A stretch of DNA of 64,000 nt from Flavobacteriia bacterium 40-80 (GTDB lineage: Bacteria; Bacteroidota; Bacteroidia; Flavobacteriales_D; Crocinitomicaceae), in assembly GCA_001899145.1 (NCBI GenBank), contig MKVF01000004.1, positions 1 to 64,000 on the forward strand, written 5' to 3'. The first letter of the stretch is position 1; each line of letters begins with the position of its first letter. A program made the translations under genes and the position numbers. This document shows positions 7,419 to 48,309 of this stretch, in pieces. Under the pieces are notes generated by a model. The model was not told where the DNA came from. It saw only the letters and a program-made list of their open reading frames with translations, and did no database searches.

Positions 7419-8387
7419 TTACTTCGAAATCAGCTCAAACAGGGCTTTCAAATTCGGAGCAACAATAATTTCAATACGGCGGTTTTTAGCTTTGTCATTT
7501 ACATCCACAGGATAATATTCAGAACGTCCCGCAGCAGATAAAATTTTAGGATCCATTTTCGAACTTGCAAGCATTATCTCAACTACAGATGTTGCTCTCA
7601 ATACGGAAAGTTCCCAGTTATTTTTAGGATGGTTCGGAGAAATAAGTTTATCCGTATCCGTATGACCTTCTACAATAATCTCCATATCCTTTTCTGTTTC
7701 CAGAATCTTTGCCAGATCGACCAAAGCTTGTTTCCCTTGTTCTTCTACTTTTGTACTTCCTGTTTTAAACAAAAGCTTCGCTTCCAGGCTAACATATAAT
7801 TTTCCATCTTTCTCAACAACGCTTAAACCTTTATCTTCATACGGTTTCAATGCGCTCAGCACACGGTTTTTGAGATCGTTGATTGCTTTGTCTTTCCGGT
7901 TAATCAGCTCCTCCAGCTCATATACTCGCTTTTCCCGGTCTGCTAACAACTGCTGTTTTTGCTTCAATTCATTCTCCAGCTCCTGTAATAATTCCTGCTT
8001 TCTTCGCAGCTCGTCACTTTTGGAATTCAATTCACCTTGTAAAGAACTACTTTCCTGCTGACCTCTTTTTCTTACTTCATCCAGCTGCTTTTCATACGCC
8101 ACAACCTGATTCACCATTTTATCATATTGGGATTGTACCAAACGTAGCTCTTCTCCTACCTTCGCTGTATCTTTTTTCATTTGCTCTACTTCACCCTGAA
8201 GTAATCCCAAACGTGTGTCACAATCTTTAAATTTCGATTCAAAATCAATTGCTGCTGACTTGTATTTCTCCAGCTCTTCATTACACGCCCGCTCTTTCTC
8301 TAAAAGCTCATTGTATTTTTTAGAAGGTACACAAGCCACTGCCATCACCACAAAAAAAGATAAAACAAAAAGATTCTGCAATTTCAT
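7419..8387 (-). CDS. OmpA-family lipoprotein with coiled coil
   Basis: Envelope protein of 322 residues. The lipoprotein signal ends AVAC (Cys19). Residues about 25-180 form a long Gln/Glu/Lys-rich coiled coil (ELNSKSDELRRKQELLQELENELKQKQQ), and the C-terminal 130 residues are an OmpA/MotB peptidoglycan-binding domain: LLFKTGSTKVEEQGKQAL, then IIVEGHTDTDK, then NWELSVLRATSVVEIM and KAKNRRIEIIVAP. It probably tethers the outer membrane to the cell wall. It is transcribed alone and ends at the terminator at 7366-7396. The coiled coil makes it a spacer type rather than a barrel OmpA. Confidence 0.93.
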   Translation of the reverse strand: MKLQNLFVLSFFVVMAVACVPSKKYNELLEKERACNEELEKYKSAAIDFESKFKDCDTRLGLLQGEVEQMKKDTAKVGEELRLVQSQYDKMVNQVVAYEKQLDEVRKRGQQESSSLQGELNSKSDELRRKQELLQELENELKQKQQLLADREKRVYELEELINRKDKAINDLKNRVLSALKPYEDKGLSVVEKDGKLYVSLEAKLLFKTGSTKVEEQGKQALVDLAKILETEKDMEIIVEGHTDTDKLISPNHPKNNWELSVLRATSVVEIMLASSKMDPKILSAAGRSEYYPVDVNDKAKNRRIEIIVAPNLKALFELISK

Positions 8388-8607: not shown

Positions 8608-9531
8608 TTAAAACAGGTCACAACCTGTCTGCGTTTTTTTATAAGCTTTGCAGCCACTCAGTGTCAAACTGATCTCATGTGAGGAATTCGGGAAGCCTCC
8701 TAAAGGGCGGAAAACATAATCAAACGAATAGCCGATAGCGAACATCTCTTTGATCTTTATATTAAAGGCAAACATTACTGCCTCGCTTGTCCGGTAAGAA
8801 ATCGCATAGCTGAACTGGTTATTATGGTCAAACAGCAGGACAATATCCGCGGAAGTTTTTCCTTTTACCGGCATTTTCAAAAGCATGGACGGGAAAAAGC
8901 TGAATCCGTTCTTACCAACAAAACGGTAGCCTCCGTTCAGAAAAGTGTGCATTGTATATCTGGATTCCAATCCGATATTTTTCCATTTGGACCCTAAAAA
9001 CTCTTTGAACACTAATCCGACATAGTAATTTTTTGAATTCCACCAAAAACCAATATTTGCATCAGGCATCCAGTTAGAAACGTACTGATGAACGGTCGGA
9101 TCGAAATTTTCTGTGGTAATGCTGCCGATATCTGCCGCCAATTGTTTTACACCGGCATCAATTCCGACGGAAAGCCGGTTGTCTTGTGAAAAATTAAGAT
9201 GGGCCGCATAGGACAGATTAATGCGGTTCGTCAGAAAAATACCGATTTTTTCCGTTGCCATTTTCAGCCCGATCCCGTGACGCGGCGTTAGAAATTCTTT
9301 CCGGGGACGATTTATAGGAGTCGTCAGTGTAAAGTTACCGTAATGAGGCATTCCTTCTATTCCGGTATATTGAAAACGATATTGTGCTTTCAGCTCAAAG
9401 CAATCCCTGATTCCGGCATGAGCAGGATTCAAAGCAAACTGATTCCAGTACCATTGTGTATATTGCGGCAATTGCTGCCCAAACGCAAAACAACCGGTAA
9501 CTACCAACAAAATAACCAGCAGCTTCCTCAT
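8608..9531 (-). CDS. PorP/SprF family type IX secretion membrane protein
   Basis: Outer-membrane protein of 307 residues with signal peptide (cleavage near CFAFGQ-Q). It has the PorP/SprF N-terminus QLPQYTQWYWNQFALNPAHAG, followed by aromatic-rich beta strands (GIGLKMATEKIGIF, NLSYAAHLNFSQDNRLSVGIDAG). PorP/SprF proteins accompany secreted proteins carrying type B T9SS sorting domains, as SprF does for SprB. Here the gene overlaps the upstream type B cargo gene by 4 bases (ATGA), strong evidence that this is a dedicated pair. A typical SprF is about 300-340 residues, so it is full length. Confidence 0.93.
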   Translation of the reverse strand: MRKLLVILLVVTGCFAFGQQLPQYTQWYWNQFALNPAHAGIRDCFELKAQYRFQYTGIEGMPHYGNFTLTTPINRPRKEFLTPRHGIGLKMATEKIGIFLTNRINLSYAAHLNFSQDNRLSVGIDAGVKQLAADIGSITTENFDPTVHQYVSNWMPDANIGFWWNSKNYYVGLVFKEFLGSKWKNIGLESRYTMHTFLNGGYRFVGKNGFSFFPSMLLKMPVKGKTSADIVLLFDHNNQFSYAISYRTSEAVMFAFNIKIKEMFAIGYSFDYVFRPLGGFPNSSHEISLTLSGCKAYKKTQTGCDLF

Positions 9532-10853
9532 CGAATCAGATTTATTGCTCCCTTAATCAGATCAGGAAATGCGGAATCTTTAAGATCAATAGTATAAAAA
9601 TACGTTCCTGCTTCCAGCTTCTTTCCGTTATGCGTTCCGTTCCAACGGTTCCCCTCAGTGTAACCAATTGAGAAAAATACACGCTGTCCCCATCTGGTGA
9701 AAACTGCTATTTCACAGTCCGGAAACTTCTCTATTCCCGGAATTACCCAGGTATCGTTAATCCCGTCCCCGTTCGGAGAAAAGGTGTTGAAAATTTTCAG
9801 ATCCTCCGATACTTCCACAACTATCGGCTTCGAAATTTTACACCCGGAAATCCAGGCATTCGCATAAAACGTAGTTGTTTCGTTCGGAAAGGCAAAAGTA
9901 TAGACAGAATCCGCATTCTGCACAAAATAACCCGGCTCCCACAAAATCGAATCAACAGCCGTATAACACCGTAAAATGGCATTCTTACCATAATTCACAG
10001 CAGTATCGTTGGATACCTGGATATCAAACGTCTTCACGGTTAAAGCTTGTGTATAGGCCCTGAGCGTATCAATGCAATATTGAAAGCAATTGTTTTCTAC
10101 GGCAAAAATATCTCCATCACTGATCTGGGAAGTAAAAATATAATCATCATCGGAAATAGCGAAAAGCTGTCCGTTGCGATACCACCGGTATTTCCCGGCA
10201 TCGGGACAATCGTTCAGGTAAGCAGACAACGCTATTTCTTCGTGAGCGCATAAAACGGTTTTGGAAGGTAAGACGGAAAGTGTTGGCTGCACGCGATTCA
10301 CGGCTTTCCCGCTGATCGTAATGTCCAGTGTAAACTCAGAAATTGTTCCTGCAACATCTGTCCCCGAAAGGCAGATATAATATGTTGATAAGGGATCCAG
10401 GCTGTCCACCTGTATCAGGTAGCTCGATTGGATATCTGCCACACAAGTATCGTTTGCATACGTTGTCCCGTCACAAGGATAGGCAGGCTTCACCAAAATA
10501 AAGTTCACACCGCTTCCGGCAGAAGTATTAAAATTAAGGCCACTCAAAAGGATATTTGTTGCTCCGCCATTATTATTCGTTTCAAATTTCAGCCAGATTG
10601 TTTTCCTGGGTATAAAGCAGAAATTAAAATCATCTTCCCCAAAATTGTAGCTTGTATGTGTTGCTCCGATGTTATTTACTGAAAAGACTTCATTCGGACA
10701 GAGCATCAACGCATTGGAACAGGCATCATAAGCCGGTTGTGCAAGAACGGAAAAAGAATAAAAAAACAAGTAAAATATCATTAGTAAATTCAGCATTTTT
10801 CTGAATTTCACTATTGAAATCAATTTATTTTTAAAATTCCTGTATTTTTCCAT
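9528..10853 (-). CDS. secreted protein with type B T9SS sorting domain
   Basis: Secreted protein of 441 residues ending in the gliding-motility-associated (CHU_C, type B) domain: NTFSPNGDGINDTWVIPGI, then FTRWGQRVFFS and EAGTYFYTIDL. The N-terminal part after the signal peptide (AQPAYDACSNALMLCPNE) is a Cys-containing beta domain seen in gliding-type proteins; an Ig-like segment (VLPSKTVLCAHEEIALSAYLNDCPDAGKYRWYRNG) and a second beta module follow. It is exported through the type IX system and probably remains on the surface. The ATG at 10853 gives a long N-region (MEKYRNFKNKLISIVKFRK) before the hydrophobic core; Met20 (MLNLLMIFYLFF, near 10796) is a plausible alternative start. Confidence 0.92.
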   Translation of the reverse strand: MEKYRNFKNKLISIVKFRKMLNLLMIFYLFFYSFSVLAQPAYDACSNALMLCPNEVFSVNNIGATHTSYNFGEDDFNFCFIPRKTIWLKFETNNNGGATNILLSGLNFNTSAGSGVNFILVKPAYPCDGTTYANDTCVADIQSSYLIQVDSLDPLSTYYICLSGTDVAGTISEFTLDITISGKAVNRVQPTLSVLPSKTVLCAHEEIALSAYLNDCPDAGKYRWYRNGQLFAISDDDYIFTSQISDGDIFAVENNCFQYCIDTLRAYTQALTVKTFDIQVSNDTAVNYGKNAILRCYTAVDSILWEPGYFVQNADSVYTFAFPNETTTFYANAWISGCKISKPIVVEVSEDLKIFNTFSPNGDGINDTWVIPGIEKFPDCEIAVFTRWGQRVFFSIGYTEGNRWNGTHNGKKLEAGTYFYTIDLKDSAFPDLIKGAINLIR

Positions 10854-11005
10854 TTAATGGTATGCACTTTTTCAACTCTACGAAATAACGAAAAAATAAT
10901 GGGTTTCGTTTAAATTTCAAAGTGAAAATACTCGAAACAACTCTTTCACCCGTAAAACGATCTGTGAGAAAATCCTTGCGGCACTTCCTTTTTATCCAAA
11001 TTCAT

Positions 11006-11013
11006 TACTTTTG
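11006..11013 (+). promoter_or_regulatory. -7 promoter box for the barrel/Ig-repeat gene
   Basis: TACTTTTG, matching TAnnTTTG, 17 bases before the ATG at 11031. This makes for a very short leader. Confidence 0.5.
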
Positions 11014-11030
11014 GAACGACTTTTGATTTT

Positions 11031-14000
11031 ATGCGAAAAAATTCAGTTTTTATGAAATATATCTACGCCCTTATCTTATTGTGTTTTTTATTCTTTTCAG
11101 AAAGTGCCGGTGCACAGTTCTACAAAAGAACACACAGTAATTTCTTCTTAACTCCTGAGATCGGAATGACTTATACCGATGCGGATGTTTCTACCCGGTT
11201 CAATGCAGGAGCAGGTTTGAAGTTCGGTTATACATTTGCTAAATACCGTGCGGTTGAATTTGATCTTAGAATCCGTTATTTCGGCGGAGGCTGGGACGGA
11301 CAGAATAAGCATAATTCCTATCTGACCAATTCTACAGAGGCTATCTACAGCGAGCCGGGAACGGATTACAAACACCAGTTGGGTTATACTGTCCGGAATT
11401 TCAGAACCGTGAATCATCACTTTGCACTGGAAGGGCTTTTACGTTTTAACGTGGATTCAAAACGTATTTTCGCGCCGTACATTTTCGGAGGAATTGCAAG
11501 TTCTAATTATACGGTAAAAAGTAATTTGCTGGACAGCGATGGGTTTATTTATCCATACGATGCCACATACGTTCCGCATTTAAAAAGTGGATACGATGCA
11601 ATGCACGACAAAACCTATGAATCTTATATCTACGGGAATAAAACATTTTCAGCGCTGACAGGAAATGCCGGGATCGGGCTGAGCTTTAATGTGAGCGACG
11701 GGTTCCGTATCGGACTGGAGCACACCATGTCATTTACCAATAAAGACAATTTTGACGGCTATACTGCTGAAAAAGCGTTCACTAAAAATGACGTTTATCA
11801 TTTCACCACTATTTTCTTCCAGTTTTACCTGCGTGGAAGACACCAGAAACAAACGGTAAGAGAAGAGAACACTCCTCCTATTGTAGTGACGCCAACACCG
11901 GGAATTCCTCCGACCATACGTTACACGAATCCGTATGCACAGGGAGAAGTAGTCAATGAGCCTCGTTATACCTTTACGGCAACGATAAAAGAAGTTGATA
12001 ATCAGAACAACCTGACTGTTGAATACAACGGGCGGCAAATTTCCGATTATACATTCAATGCCGGAAACGGTCGGTTTACAACGACACAATCGCTGAATCC
12101 CGGAAATAATGTGATCACAATTACGGCAAGAAATGCTTACGGAACAGCTACTGAATCAACATCCGTGATCTATGAGCGCAAGGCAGAACAACCTCCTCAG
12201 GTATATTTCACAAATCCGGCAACAAGCCCGTACACCAGCTCTTCCAACAGATTTACGCTGAATGCAAAAGCATTGTATGTTAACGGGAAAGAGAATATCA
12301 TTTTCAGACAAAACGGTATTGTCAATAACAACTTCTCATTCAACAGCTCCACAAAAGATTTTTCCTGTTATGTTGTTCTTGAACAGGGAAATAACATTTT
12401 TGAAATAACGGGAACGAACCAGGACGGAACTGCTGTTGCCAGCACAATTATCGTTTATGGAAGAACCGTGAACTGCCAGAATCCGGTAATTTCTGTTAAG
12501 CAACCGTTCAGATCTCCGGAATATACCAGCAATTCTACTTATACGCTCATCGGAAGCGTGTTCAATGTAACGAACAGAAATCAGATCTCGTTTATCTATA
12601 ACAATCAGAATTATACCAATTACACATTCAATCCATCTGACAACACCATTACAGCACAACTTCCATTGCAGAAAGGAAATAATACTGTCACAATAAAAGT
12701 GACCAATGAGTGCGGAACGGCAAACGAATCGGAAACAATTATTTACACACCTGCCCAGGAATTGCAGAAATATCCGCCGACGGTGGCATTTATCACACCT
12801 TATCAGTCCAATACAACTGTAAATACCAACGACTATACGTTTACAGCAACCACAACGAATATTTCCGGGAGCAACCAGATCAGTGTAAATCTGAACGGGA
12901 AAAATATTACGAATTTCACATTCAATCCTGCCAGTCAGCAGATCTCTTTCCGGACAATGCTGATCGAAGGCTATAATACTGCAACTATCAATGTAGCTAA
13001 CAATGACGGAAACGCGACTACGACAACTACGGTAATTTACAGAAAAGCCAATCCGGCTCCGACAGTAGATTTCACGCGTCCGGCAACATCTCCGTTAACA
13101 GTTATACAAAACAGCTATGAGCTTGTTGCAAAAACGACAAACGTTACCCAGCTGAACCAGATCTCTTTCTCTGTCAACGGAAATAAAACTAACCTCATCA
13201 GCTTTGACGCTGCATCAGGGGAAATTCGTTACAATGCAGTTTTAAGAGAAGGAAGCAATGATTTCAGCGTAACTGTTAAAACAGAAGGAGGCAGTGCTTC
13301 TGATCAGACGACTATCATTTACCGCCCGAGAGCAGTTGTTTCTCCTCCAAAAGTAGAATTCACCGTTCCGGACAACAATATCCAGGTGAAAAACAACACT
13401 TACAGCTTAGTTGCCCGAACAGAAAATATTGAAGCCAACAACCAGATCAGCATTTCTCAAAACGGTACGGCAATTACTTCCTTCAGTTTCGATGCAGTAA
13501 GCCAGGAGATCCGTTTTAATTCCTCCTTAAATGAAGGAAGCAACCTGTTTGTTGTAAAAGTGACCAATGTAAGCGGAAGCGCTGAAGACAGAGTAACTAT
13601 CCAATACAATAAAGAAATAGTAATTGCGCGTCCTTCTGTAAAATGGACTTCCCCTGAGGCACCGGGAGCAACTGCCAACGTAAAATTTTATAACTTCACA
13701 GCAAAGACAACAGCTGTCACTTCCAAGAATTACATTTCCGTGACACTCAATAATGCGGAAGTAACAGATTTCGACTTCAATACATCGACCGGAATAATTT
13801 CATTCAAAGGAATACTGAATAAAGGAAGCAACACGGCGGTAGTAAAAGTACGAAATGAAGCGGCCGAGGCAAGTGACATCACCTCTGTTTCTTATACAGC
13901 GTCATCGGTTGTGCTGGAATGTCCGAAACCTGTGCTCTCACTAAATGGAAAAACATTCCGTTCTTCTTCCTCTGATTACACACTTTCCGGAACGGTTCAG

Positions 14001-15473
14001 AACATTTCGGAAGCAAAAGACATTGCAATTATCATCAACGGGAAAGCATCAGGAGAAGCGATTCAGTACAATGCAGCCGGAAAGACATTCGGGGCGAAAT
14101 TATTCCTTGCCTCAGGTTCCAATGTAATTGAGATAAAAGCAACGAATTTCTGCGGAAGCACTTCTGAATTCATCACAGTAGATGTAGCTGTGTGCAATCC
14201 ACCTGAATTGTCAGTTATTTCTCCTGCTCAAAGAATACCTTCCACTCAGGAAAGTGTTATGAAAGTGGAGTTCGGAGCAACAAATATCAGCTCTAAAAAT
14301 GAAATTTCACTGAAAGTAAACGGTGCTGCACAAGCATTTACTTACGATCCTGTCAACAATCGGATCACTGCGAATGTCAATCTGACCGTAGGGAAAAACA
14401 ATGTGGAAGTCATTGCATCCAACAATTGCGGAAGCGTCAAAAGCACGGTTGAAATTACAAGAACAGCTTGTGACAAGCCTACTCTGTCGGTGGTTAAATC
14501 AACAGTTAACAATAATGGAACAACTACTGCCCAATACTTCAATCTGGATGCGAATGTCGGTTATATTTCATCGAACAGCCAGATCAGCATTACCCACAAC
14601 GGAAGAGCTGTCAATTTTGTTTACAATAACGTGACAAATATTCTATCACTGGACAGAAGCACAATGACCGGAACGAACACTATTGTAATTAAGCTTACGA
14701 ACACCTGTGGAACGACCACTTACACACATACGTTCACGCGCCAGGAAGATCCGAATGCGAAACCTCCGGTATTGACATTTGTAAATCCCGCTTCCGAGGC
14801 CACCGTAACCCAAAATTTATACAGCTTCAGGTTATCAACACAATATGTCACAGCTCAAAGCCAGCTGGCGATGAAAGTGAACGGTCAATCGGTTAACTTT
14901 ACATTCAATGCAGGTACTAATACGGTAACATTTACGGCTTCTCTGAAAGAAGGACAGAATACGGTGCAGGCTTATGCTGTAACACCTTACGGAAGTGATG
15001 AAAAAACAGCGGTTGTCCATTACAAAAAACAACAGACCGTAAATCCTCCGTCCATTGTCATTACCTCGCATTCCTGCCCGGTTCAGCTGGTTTTAGGAAA
15101 CAATACCATTTCAGGTTATGTGACTAATATTCAGAATGCCGGTGACCTGGCCTTCTATATAGATGATGCGGTTGTCAATAACGTTTCTGAAACAATAGAA
15201 GACGGAAAAATCACCTTCTCATTCATGCTGACAGCCAGAACCGGAAATGCTCCCAAAACATTAAAAATTGTCGCGAAGAACAGTGCTTCTACAGAAACAA
15301 AAACATGTGTGATCAACTATCCTTCAGCTTCAAATACGCCAATGACGCCGATAGAAATAACCAAACCGATTAAAACAACACCGCCGCCGGTCAAAACCAC
15401 CATTCCGACGAGAACAACAACACCAACCAAAACGGAGGAAACACCGATCCTCATACCAAGAGGAAGGAATTAA
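11031..15473 (+). CDS. outer-membrane barrel-like protein with 12 Ig-like repeats
   Basis: Protein of 1480 residues. After a signal peptide (cleavage near SAGAQ-F; Met8 at 11052 is an equally good start), residues about 30-285 read as an outer-membrane beta-barrel of the porin/OmpW type (FFLTPEIGMTYTDADVS, GAGLKFGYTFAKYRAVEFDLRIRYFGG, IFAPYIFGGIASS, GNAGIGLSFNVSDGFRIGLEH). Then come about 12 Ig-like repeats of 91-98 residues, each with a PP-x-V-x-F-x-x-P opening, an N-Q-I-S-x-x-x-N-G strand, a F-x-F-N/D turn, an L-x-x-G-x-N strand and a closing N-x-x-G-x-A-x-x-x-x-x-I-x-Y. The 44-residue tail is Pro/Thr-rich. No T9SS sorting domain is seen. It is probably a surface or cell-wall-facing structural protein or adhesin (inference). 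Confidence 0.85.
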   Translation: MRKNSVFMKYIYALILLCFLFFSESAGAQFYKRTHSNFFLTPEIGMTYTDADVSTRFNAGAGLKFGYTFAKYRAVEFDLRIRYFGGGWDGQNKHNSYLTNSTEAIYSEPGTDYKHQLGYTVRNFRTVNHHFALEGLLRFNVDSKRIFAPYIFGGIASSNYTVKSNLLDSDGFIYPYDATYVPHLKSGYDAMHDKTYESYIYGNKTFSALTGNAGIGLSFNVSDGFRIGLEHTMSFTNKDNFDGYTAEKAFTKNDVYHFTTIFFQFYLRGRHQKQTVREENTPPIVVTPTPGIPPTIRYTNPYAQGEVVNEPRYTFTATIKEVDNQNNLTVEYNGRQISDYTFNAGNGRFTTTQSLNPGNNVITITARNAYGTATESTSVIYERKAEQPPQVYFTNPATSPYTSSSNRFTLNAKALYVNGKENIIFRQNGIVNNNFSFNSSTKDFSCYVVLEQGNNIFEITGTNQDGTAVASTIIVYGRTVNCQNPVISVKQPFRSPEYTSNSTYTLIGSVFNVTNRNQISFIYNNQNYTNYTFNPSDNTITAQLPLQKGNNTVTIKVTNECGTANESETIIYTPAQELQKYPPTVAFITPYQSNTTVNTNDYTFTATTTNISGSNQISVNLNGKNITNFTFNPASQQISFRTMLIEGYNTATINVANNDGNATTTTTVIYRKANPAPTVDFTRPATSPLTVIQNSYELVAKTTNVTQLNQISFSVNGNKTNLISFDAASGEIRYNAVLREGSNDFSVTVKTEGGSASDQTTIIYRPRAVVSPPKVEFTVPDNNIQVKNNTYSLVARTENIEANNQISISQNGTAITSFSFDAVSQEIRFNSSLNEGSNLFVVKVTNVSGSAEDRVTIQYNKEIVIARPSVKWTSPEAPGATANVKFYNFTAKTTAVTSKNYISVTLNNAEVTDFDFNTSTGIISFKGILNKGSNTAVVKVRNEAAEASDITSVSYTASSVVLECPKPVLSLNGKTFRSSSSDYTLSGTVQNISEAKDIAIIINGKASGEAIQYNAAGKTFGAKLFLASGSNVIEIKATNFCGSTSEFITVDVAVCNPPELSVISPAQRIPSTQESVMKVEFGATNISSKNEISLKVNGAAQAFTYDPVNNRITANVNLTVGKNNVEVIASNNCGSVKSTVEITRTACDKPTLSVVKSTVNNNGTTTAQYFNLDANVGYISSNSQISITHNGRAVNFVYNNVTNILSLDRSTMTGTNTIVIKLTNTCGTTTYTHTFTRQEDPNAKPPVLTFVNPASEATVTQNLYSFRLSTQYVTAQSQLAMKVNGQSVNFTFNAGTNTVTFTASLKEGQNTVQAYAVTPYGSDEKTAVVHYKKQQTVNPPSIVITSHSCPVQLVLGNNTISGYVTNIQNAGDLAFYIDDAVVNNVSETIEDGKITFSFMLTARTGNAPKTLKIVAKNSASTETKTCVINYPSASNTPMTPIEITKPIKTTPPPVKTTIPTRTTTPTKTEETPILIPRGRN

Positions 15474-46116: not shown

Positions 46117-48309
46117 TTAGTCTCTGATAATTCCCAATTGATTGAATTTTCTCAAATCAACCGGATCTGCTTCTTTATATAAAGCCTGACGGATCCCATT
46201 GTAAACACCGTTTTTAGCAGTATTCAACAGCTGGTCTCTCTGAATTTCATAGTTCTCCGTTTTCAATGCTTTTGTCGTCTTGTTAACAACAACTACATAT
46301 ACACCGTTCTCACCTTTAATCGGAGCTGTAATTTTTCCGTCTTTCAGGTTATTGTATAATGCTCCCACTACTTGTGGTTCGTAACCTGCGCTTCCCAACT
46401 GCGGGTTAGCAAATGTAACACTCGCAGACTGAACAGTTGTACCGATTTTTGAGGCCGCCGCTTCCAGGTTATTCGTCCCCTGAAGCTGGGAAGCGATACG
46501 TTTCGCTTTCAGCTCCTTGATCACCTCGCGTTTCATTCTTTCTTTCACATCTTCAAACTGAGGAACTCCTTTTTCTCTGACAGCAGAAACTATTGCAACA
46601 ATGTACTTGTCCGTATCTTTAAAAGGAACTGAGCTCAATGTACCTGTTTCGGATTTTTTATCGTAAGCCAGTTTAATCACATTGTCTTTTGCCAGCGGGC
46701 TTGTAAAGTTGTAAACTTTCGGGCTGTTATCATAAATTGTAATCGGGCTGGAAACAAAGAAATTGTTTTGCTTCGCTACCGTATCAAACAAGTTTACTTT
46801 TTCAGACGCATCTTTCACTTTGCTGATCTTAGCGTCGATCTTCTCGATCATCTCATAAGCAACGTTCAATGTGCTGCTCTCTGTCGCCTCGCTCGGAGCT
46901 AATGTTTTCTGGATCACCGCAAGCACCGGGTAATTTACTTCTTCTTTTTTCAGCACTTCAATAATGTGAATTCCAAACTGAGTTTTAACATACCCAATTT
47001 TTCCTACCGGGTTGTCAACGATGAATTTAGAGAACTCAGGAACCATTGCGTAATCAAAGAACTCTTCATATTTACCTCCGGTACTAATAGATGGTCGATC
47101 CTGTGAATATTTCGTAACGTACTCTTCGAAGTTATTGCTGTTAATCTGCTTCACTAAAGAGTCCGCCTGTTTCTCCGCTTTAGCTACCGATGCGCTGTCC
47201 TGAGCACTTAACAGGATATGTCTCGCTGACAACAGGTATTTGTTTTTATCAATGACCTTAGCGATCTTAGTTTGTGTTCCTTGTGTATAAGGTCCTACAA
47301 TCTCACCAACCTGCGCATTTTTAAATACGCTGTCCATATAAGAAGGATAAGTTAATCCCTGCTGTGCATTTTTATGACCTTCCGGAAGATAAGTGAACCG
47401 GTGGTCTTTCGAGTACAATTTGAATTCACTGTTCGCAATTACAAACAAACTGTCATTTTTAGATTTCGCTAACTTATCTTTTAATGATTCCAGCTCTTTG
47501 TTAAACTCCTCAACATCTTCATTAGAAGGTCTCAAAGGAACTTCAAAATATTTTACATCTCTGCTTGCTGCAAAAACTTCCCATTTTTTCTCGTTTTTGT
47601 GCTCGTCATAATATTTTTTGATGTCCTCATCTTTTACTTTAATTTCCTCATCCGGAATTTCAGAGTAACGTTTACCAATAAAGGAAACATCTTTCAGCTC
47701 ATTCTGAGCAAGGTATTCGTTCTCCGCCTCCAAAGTCGTAACATAAGAAGTTAAAGTCATCAGCTGCACATATTTTTCATATTCTCTTGATTTCTTAACA
47801 CCTTCAACCGTATTTTTCCAGTTTTGCGCTTCCTGCGGGTCTTTTGATGTTTTCATCTGGTCAATACGCTGTTCTAACATTCGTCTGTTGAACTTTCCTG
47901 TCGAATCCGTAAACTGCTGCTCGATTGTCGGGTTCAAAGCAAATCCGTCAACACCCAGCAGGTAAGATTCTACCTCTTTATCAGATACACTCAGCTGTAA
48001 TGCTTCGAACTCTCTTTTGAAAATTTTCTCCTCCACGATCGCATTCCATGCTTTTTCTGTGGAATTAGCTTCATCATCAGCTGTGTATGGTTTTTGTTGT
48101 TGCTGGAACTCCTGCTGGTCCATCGCGATCATTTCCCGGAGTTTTGCTTCATACTCCGCATTGTCGATTTCTTCACCAAAAACTTCTCCCGGATAAAATT
48201 TAACCTGTTGATTTTTATTAAATTCCGGTAAAATAAATGCAATTAGGGCAACCCCGATGAATACTAGCAGTATCCAAGATTTTTCTCTAATTTTTCCAAT
48301 AAACGCCAT
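46117..48309 (-). CDS. PpiD/SurA-like peptidylprolyl isomerase
   Basis: Membrane-anchored periplasmic foldase of 730 residues. It has one N-terminal membrane helix (SWILLVFIGVALIAFILPEF, about residues 11-30), a SurA_N_3 chaperone region (EVFGEEIDNAEYEAKLREM, IVEEKIFKREFEAL), and one parvulin-type rotamase domain about residues 365-460 (SARHILLSAQDSASVAKAEKQAD, YSQDRPSISTGGKYEEFF, FGIHIIEVLKK), then a helical C-terminal tail. It assists folding of exported proteins at the inner membrane. No second rotamase domain is clear. It ends at a strong terminator. Confidence 0.93.
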   Translation of the reverse strand: MAFIGKIREKSWILLVFIGVALIAFILPEFNKNQQVKFYPGEVFGEEIDNAEYEAKLREMIAMDQQEFQQQQKPYTADDEANSTEKAWNAIVEEKIFKREFEALQLSVSDKEVESYLLGVDGFALNPTIEQQFTDSTGKFNRRMLEQRIDQMKTSKDPQEAQNWKNTVEGVKKSREYEKYVQLMTLTSYVTTLEAENEYLAQNELKDVSFIGKRYSEIPDEEIKVKDEDIKKYYDEHKNEKKWEVFAASRDVKYFEVPLRPSNEDVEEFNKELESLKDKLAKSKNDSLFVIANSEFKLYSKDHRFTYLPEGHKNAQQGLTYPSYMDSVFKNAQVGEIVGPYTQGTQTKIAKVIDKNKYLLSARHILLSAQDSASVAKAEKQADSLVKQINSNNFEEYVTKYSQDRPSISTGGKYEEFFDYAMVPEFSKFIVDNPVGKIGYVKTQFGIHIIEVLKKEEVNYPVLAVIQKTLAPSEATESSTLNVAYEMIEKIDAKISKVKDASEKVNLFDTVAKQNNFFVSSPITIYDNSPKVYNFTSPLAKDNVIKLAYDKKSETGTLSSVPFKDTDKYIVAIVSAVREKGVPQFEDVKERMKREVIKELKAKRIASQLQGTNNLEAAASKIGTTVQSASVTFANPQLGSAGYEPQVVGALYNNLKDGKITAPIKGENGVYVVVVNKTTKALKTENYEIQRDQLLNTAKNGVYNGIRQALYKEADPVDLRKFNQLGIIRD

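Follow-up and report, generated by a model that had tools for sequence, protein, structure and literature searches.

The window analysed here, a 64,000-nucleotide stretch of contig MKVF01000004.1 from Flavobacteriia bacterium 40-80 (GenBank assembly GCA_001899145.1), carries at 11031–15473 on the forward strand an intact open reading frame (ORF) of 1480 amino acids (aa), hereafter referred to as the array gene. In its product, an outer-membrane barrel with 8 predicted strands is followed by 12 immunoglobulin (Ig)-like repeats and a basic tail; this array protein is the single match in its own 3.5-Mb genome. In alignments, the start of the relatives coincides with M8, which may be the true start. 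The features of the array gene are the following.

11031..15473, + strand: barrel and Ig-array gene, 1480 aa, from the ORF and its relatives, with M8, at 11052, as the possible true start
11031..11114, + strand: signal peptide, aa 1–28, cleavage before Q29, judged by eye from the sequence
11133..11834, + strand: predicted 8-stranded outer-membrane barrel, aa 35–268, from AlphaFold2, the OmpA/NspA/OprF-type fold, residue alternation and PorG profile similarity
11835..11906, + strand: flexible linker, aa 269–292, with a predicted local distance difference test score (pLDDT) partly <50 in the AlphaFold2 model
11907..15320, + strand: 12 Ig-like repeats, aa 293–1430, from a repeat hidden Markov model (HMM), with two repeats modelled
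15321..15470, + strand: basic Pro/Thr-rich tail, aa 1431–1480, ending in PRGRN, from the sequence

The original prediction, made from the DNA letters, had described a barrel and about 12 Ig-like repeats in one polypeptide. This layout was confirmed by the 12 HMM domains and the 8-strand prediction, and the stated repeat length of 91–98 aa needs correction to 91–99 aa according to the HMM cut. The structure prediction that it had proposed as a check yielded 8 long strands for the barrel and Ig-type sandwiches for two repeats, and the proposed search for a known family covering the whole protein found none above its own cut-off. The claim that a sorting domain of the type 9 secretion system (T9SS) is absent also held, with no match of the window protein to a type A or type B sorting-domain family at an expectation value (E) up to 1. 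Among solved structures searched by sequence, the best E was 1 for the whole protein, and neither the barrel profile nor a stretch of repeats had a match at E 1.

AlphaFold2 with 81 sequences predicted 8 long strands for the barrel, together with two short segments of strand (mean pLDDT 87; predicted template modelling score, pTM, 0.54), and the same 8 strands were obtained for the barrel alone with 67 sequences (pLDDT 77, pTM 0.74). In these predictions, the longest loops follow strands 3, 5 and 7, opposite both termini, and short turns lie on the side of the termini. The structures matched were the 8-stranded OmpA, NspA, OprF, PagL and OmpW, at Z 13.6–18.2 for crystal structures and one OmpA model (14.5–18.2 for the OmpA crystal structures and the model, 14.0 and 16.1 for OprF), and the nuclear magnetic resonance models of OmpA scored lower, down to Z 8.4. 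The top row, Legionella porin III (9nh2, Z 18.6), was taken as the same general fold; such likeness of fold by itself says nothing on function. The two faces of the strands differed in charged residues (21% versus 5%) and in mean conservation (0.79 versus 0.64, higher on the charged face). The lumen face of each strand was defined as the less hydrophobic one, so that the gap in hydropathy arises by construction, which is not the case for charge and conservation. Single strands deviated, with the charge reversed in strand 2 and the conservation slightly reversed in strand 4. Weak family matches in 41 barrels were to OMP_b-brl (13), DUF6089 (7), OMP_myx_plus (7), OMP_b-brl_2 (4), OMP_TP0733 (4) and the gliding barrel CglE (4).

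The model agrees with a closed barrel of the OmpA type, both ends of which are periplasmic, rather than with a 12-stranded conduit of the intimin type. Because both ends of an OmpA-type barrel lie on the periplasmic side, the array is most likely located in the periplasm, as judged from the predicted topology. The original prediction had left open whether the array lies outside the cell or in the periplasm, and the evidence now leans towards the periplasm, without proof. It had taken as its guide the inverse autotransporters (intimin/invasin, type Ve), in which one chain likewise carries a barrel and then Ig-like repeats, and had noted that their barrel is different. The difference was borne out, and the guide failed: intimin-type translocator barrels have 12 strands, 8 OmpA-type strands are predicted here, and the Pfam family IAT_beta matched neither the 41 barrels (E up to 0.1) nor the window protein (E up to 1), bearing in mind that HMMER filters drop many weak matches. 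Membership of the inverse autotransporters was rejected on these two grounds, the 8 strands in two predictions and the negative IAT_beta search. Intimin and invasin chains were not found among the best 50 structure matches of each comparison, an absence that excludes nothing.

OmpA and OprF share with the window protein both the barrel fold and the order of an N-terminal barrel followed by a C-terminal part, which in OmpA is periplasmic. They differ in that an Ig array and a basic tail replace this part in the window protein, where the OmpA peptidoglycan-binding domain PF00691 had no match at E up to 1. The array protein adds to the OmpA-type modular outer-membrane proteins as a variant with an Ig array and a basic tail.

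The 12 repeats start at aa 293, 388, 484, 582, 676, 772, 867, 966, 1057, 1149, 1245 and 1339. The repeat HMM was built from these same repeats, and shuffled sets serve as the control: the mean pairwise identity was 26% (range 15–47%) for the repeats, whereas 20 shuffled repeat sets averaged 15% and did not exceed 18%. The two modelled repeats formed confident Ig-type sandwiches, most blocks having a pLDDT >90, and their best structural matches were titin Ig tandems. Among 25 array proteins, including the window protein, Big_7 was matched by 16 and Glucodextran_B by 14 at E 0.001; the window protein alone passed the cut-off of no Ig family, its model being nonetheless Ig-like. The array is rich in Asn, Thr and Ser, with a net charge of −0.4 per 40 residues. 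For comparison of whole proteins, we used sets of 81 and 76 distinct complete relatives, from which six cut-off loci were removed and which were filtered for length, a few of them frameshifted. In the set of 76, the repeat number was 4–24 (median 13) and the protein length 926–2981 aa.

The tail past the last repeat had a median length of 134.5 aa in the 76 complete proteins and is 46 aa long in the window protein. The last 40 residues were net positive in 73 of 76, with a mean of +4.1. GG occurred within the last 8 residues in 48 of 81 proteins, compared with 7–18 of 81 per window further in, and the chains ended in GG(K/R) in 27, exactly in (K/R)GGG(K/R) in 15 and in (K/R)P in 11 of 76. When classed by a simple rule on composition, 60 of 76 tails were rich in Pro, Thr, Ser or Gly, and 7 of 76 were rich in Ala and Glu with Lys. 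Linkage through a terminal Lys, as in Braun lipoprotein, was set aside, the last residue being Lys in 14 of 76 chains, Arg in 25 and Asn in the window protein. The tails resemble the linkers of TonB and TolA, which cross the periplasm, in their Pro/Lys-rich or Ala/Glu/Lys-rich composition, and in composition only; they differ in being placed on an outer-membrane barrel and not on the inner membrane, and no TonB or TolA family was among the 16 families matched by the 25 array proteins at E 0.001. In four loci (L070, L128, L082 and L144), the C-terminal 160 aa hold long Ala/Glu/Lys-rich stretches, which we take to be reminiscent of the TolA helix.

The nearest named relative of the barrel by profile was PorG. 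The NCBIfam model T9SS_PorG (NF052316) weakly matched 37 of the 41 barrels at E up to 0.1, and the window protein scored E 8.7e-6 and 25.6 bits against a cut-off of 130 bits. In hhalign, the barrel profile was aligned with 28 true PorG sequences at 93% probability (E 3.5e-7), compared with 1% in a control against 18 PorP sequences; a control comparison of PorG with PorP gave 23%, confined to the signal peptide. The PorG alignment (A4) comprised 28 of 30 loci, one ORF not being extracted and one near-duplicate being dropped, and did not include the window protein. A Cys just past the last strand was invariant in all 28 aligned PorG sequences, and no Cys was found at aa 268–292 of the window protein, where the Ig array occupies the corresponding place. 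According to Liu et al. 2025 (PMC12635249), PorG is predicted to be an 8-stranded barrel, and its C-terminal tail is periplasmic and, in F. johnsoniae, bonded to GldK via Cys. PorG and the window protein thus share a predicted 8-stranded barrel and profile similarity, and the C-terminal end of PorG is periplasmic; PorG ends after the barrel with its GldK-bonding Cys tail, whereas the window protein continues into a 1200-aa Ig array and tail. Since the score is below the cut-off, the Cys is missing and a separate true PorG is encoded elsewhere in the genome (G000:C17, 167 bits), true PorG membership was rejected. By profile comparison, the window protein appears as a remote relative of PorG and not as PorG itself. 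The same genome holds a second PorG-like gene (G000:C6:81647-82198, 73.6 bits), below the family cut-off, and further weak PorG-like barrels, in open frames of ~714–755 aa separate from the array genes and also below the PorG cut-off, occur in G004, G011, G024, G038 and other genomes.

Of 120 genomes of the family, taken as Crocinitomicaceae, 101 matched the whole protein at E 1e-10. With the first 300 aa as the query at E 1e-5, 86 of 199 genomes of the order and 37 of 295 of the class were positive, the weakest class-level matches possibly being other barrels. The relatives examined by name, which were the best 80 of 183, included members of Crocinitomicaceae, Fluviicola, Brumimicrobium and other Flavobacteriales, and 66 of these 80 loci plus the window protein were aligned (A5). 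Some record names look wrong (Glaciecola amylolytica, Chryseobacterium gleum and Actinomyces viscosus for L104, L108, L124 and others), and the array gene of L092 lies in three pieces (1459, 259 and 466 aa) through a frameshift or an assembly fault. No description of the array protein was found in the searches made of an open-licence library.

Upstream of the array gene, an operon-like row of three genes is divergently transcribed.

10854..11030, no strand: intergenic region of 177 bp that separates the array gene from the divergent cargo operon, the same arrangement being present in relatives
9528..10853, − strand: type B T9SS cargo protein, 441 aa, with a CHU_C/TIGR04131 sorting domain, from family matches and orthologues
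8608..9531, − strand: PorP/SprF carrier, 307 aa, with two Cys in the last 14 residues, from family matches and the sequence
7419..8387, − strand: OmpA-domain coiled-coil protein, 322 aa, from a family match; on inspection by eye, its start resembles a lipobox

The cargo gene stands divergently next to the array gene in 24 of 40 array loci, drawn from the families f1, f3, f10 and f11, and PorP lies within 3.5 kb in 23; 24 of the 40 array loci (A6) and 17 of the 23 PorP neighbours (A7) were aligned, each with the window protein. Among 53 family genomes with a barrel match and a cargo search (own genome left out), the cargo was divergently adjacent within 3 kb in 33, the query being the cargo protein minus its sorting domain, so that a diverged cargo counts as not found. 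Gorasia et al. 2022 (PMC9143113) describe PorP-like proteins as 14-stranded FadL-type barrels that bind type B cargo, and specific carriers are reported in another paper (PMC12618676). The carrier and the cargo are frequent divergent neighbours of the array gene, not homologues, and PorP had no profile similarity to the array barrel. A pair of Cys within the final 16 residues was present in 19 of the 23 neighbouring PorP proteins (that of the window left out), compared with two only of the 10 PorP/SprF matches in the own genome: the carrier at 8608–9531 beside the array gene and one at G000:C10:67074-67922, just upstream of gldJ. The Cys-X-Cys tail of SprF is required for normal attachment to the track, as reported by Liu et al. 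2025 (PMC12635249). The twin-Cys tail of the carriers, which is more widely spaced than that of SprF, might by analogy play the same role. These arrangements are suggestive of a link between the array gene and the cargo/PorP module.

In conjunction with the predicted topology, we tentatively favour, at a little short of even confidence, a reading in which the array protein is anchored in the outer membrane and forms a periplasmic Ig rod or tether, possibly in the service of a T9SS/gliding cargo module. The N-terminus would fold as a closed 8-stranded OmpA-type barrel that fixes the rod in the outer membrane, and the flexible linker would lead the 12 Ig domains (4–24 in complete relatives) into the periplasm, where the rod may act as a spacer or a spring. 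The basic low-complexity tail may grip a partner at a distance, either peptidoglycan or a periplasmic machine, and the rod might help to place or restrain the surface cargo of the type B T9SS neighbour. This last role is suggested because the array gene is frequently divergent from a cargo gene and a PorP/SprF carrier with an SprF-like, putatively track-bonding tail. An Ig domain is ~4 nm long, and a rod of 12–24 such domains exceeds the depth of the periplasm; it must then lie along the membrane or bend, and a rod lying along the membrane would suit a lateral tether or guide.

This excess length also weighs against the tether, together with several other observations. Surface stalks, too, typically vary in repeat number, and neither PF00691 nor any other peptidoglycan-binding family was among the 16 families matched by the 25 array proteins at E 0.001. 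The cargo was not adjacent in 16 of 40 array loci or in 20 of the 53 family genomes (12 elsewhere, 8 with no match), and the OmpA-domain gene adjoins the module in only 4 of 40 array loci. Nor did co-occurrence lend support, array and cargo being uncorrelated among 120 genomes (88 with both, 13 with array only, 15 with cargo only and 4 with neither; Fisher p 0.47). It is rather doubtful that the rod goes further and is titin-like and elastic over tens of nm, with the OmpA-type barrel at one end and a basic, often Gly-Gly-basic, tail at the other, and mechanically holds back or steers the T9SS cargo carriers as these are pulled along the gliding track.

The main rival reading takes the protein for a surface adhesin. 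Its Ig array would then be exported through the lumen of its own barrel, or with the help of the β-barrel assembly machinery (BAM), in the way that inverse autotransporters work, and adhesion to surfaces would be due to the array or to its tip. The layout of a barrel followed by an Ig stalk, the variation of repeat number from 4 to 24, the richness of the array in Asn, Thr and Ser, and the neighbouring T9SS cargo and carrier are all compatible with this reading, as is the SprB-repeat gene that follows PorP in two loci (L085 and L092). The predicted strands number 8 and not the 12 of intimin-type barrels, however, and to our knowledge no barrel of 8 strands passes a polypeptide; moreover, the conservation and charge of one strand face are what a filled lumen would lead one to expect, and IAT_beta went unmatched in the 41 barrels at E up to 0.1. 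An exported adhesin is, in our estimate, unlikely.

An equally improbable alternative retains the periplasmic side and drops the T9SS: a general tether between the outer membrane and peptidoglycan, an analogue of OmpA with Ig domains and a basic tail in place of the OmpA C-terminal domain. The OmpA-type barrel, the net positive tail in 73 of 76 proteins and the independent occurrence of array and cargo agree with this view, but the divergent linkage to type B cargo and PorP recurs in four families, and no peptidoglycan-binding family was matched in the 25 members. The PorG profile matches, finally, raise the idea of a divergent PorG paralogue that acts within the T9SS/gliding energy chain, is driven by the GldK track and gains reach through the array. 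This we regard as the least probable of the three, since the window protein scores 25.6 bits against the cut-off of 130, a true PorG is present in the genome, and the Cys that is invariant in PorG is absent after the array barrel.

Should the array be periplasmic, an outer-membrane-bound Ig chain longer than the depth of the periplasm would be encoded in 101 of the 120 family genomes, as a mechanical element added to the cell envelope. It would be a candidate part for organizing the internal track behind gliding and type 9 secretion in Bacteroidota, and a kind of envelope tether that is common in one family of environmental bacteria and apparently undescribed.

With respect to other genes, GldJ failed as a discriminator: 119 of 120 family genomes had a match, in 90 of them over the cut-off. 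A 959-aa gene faces the cargo operon in 3 of 4 array-less loci of genus g2; the one scanned encoded an M16 peptidase and was taken as a mere neighbour. In four loci of family f13 (L083, L084, L086 and L093), the place of the cargo operon is taken by a ~348-aa gene, which immediately precedes the array gene in the same orientation. The genes downstream of the array gene were mixed. In L067, L071, L074 and L099, the array gene is followed by a ~120-aa gene and then by a ~910-aa protein with similarity to the cargo-like sorting domain. The window also encodes a SurA-like peptidyl-prolyl isomerase at 46117–48309 on the reverse strand, homologues of which (28–44% identity) lie directly downstream of the array gene in L069, L070, L072 and L100.

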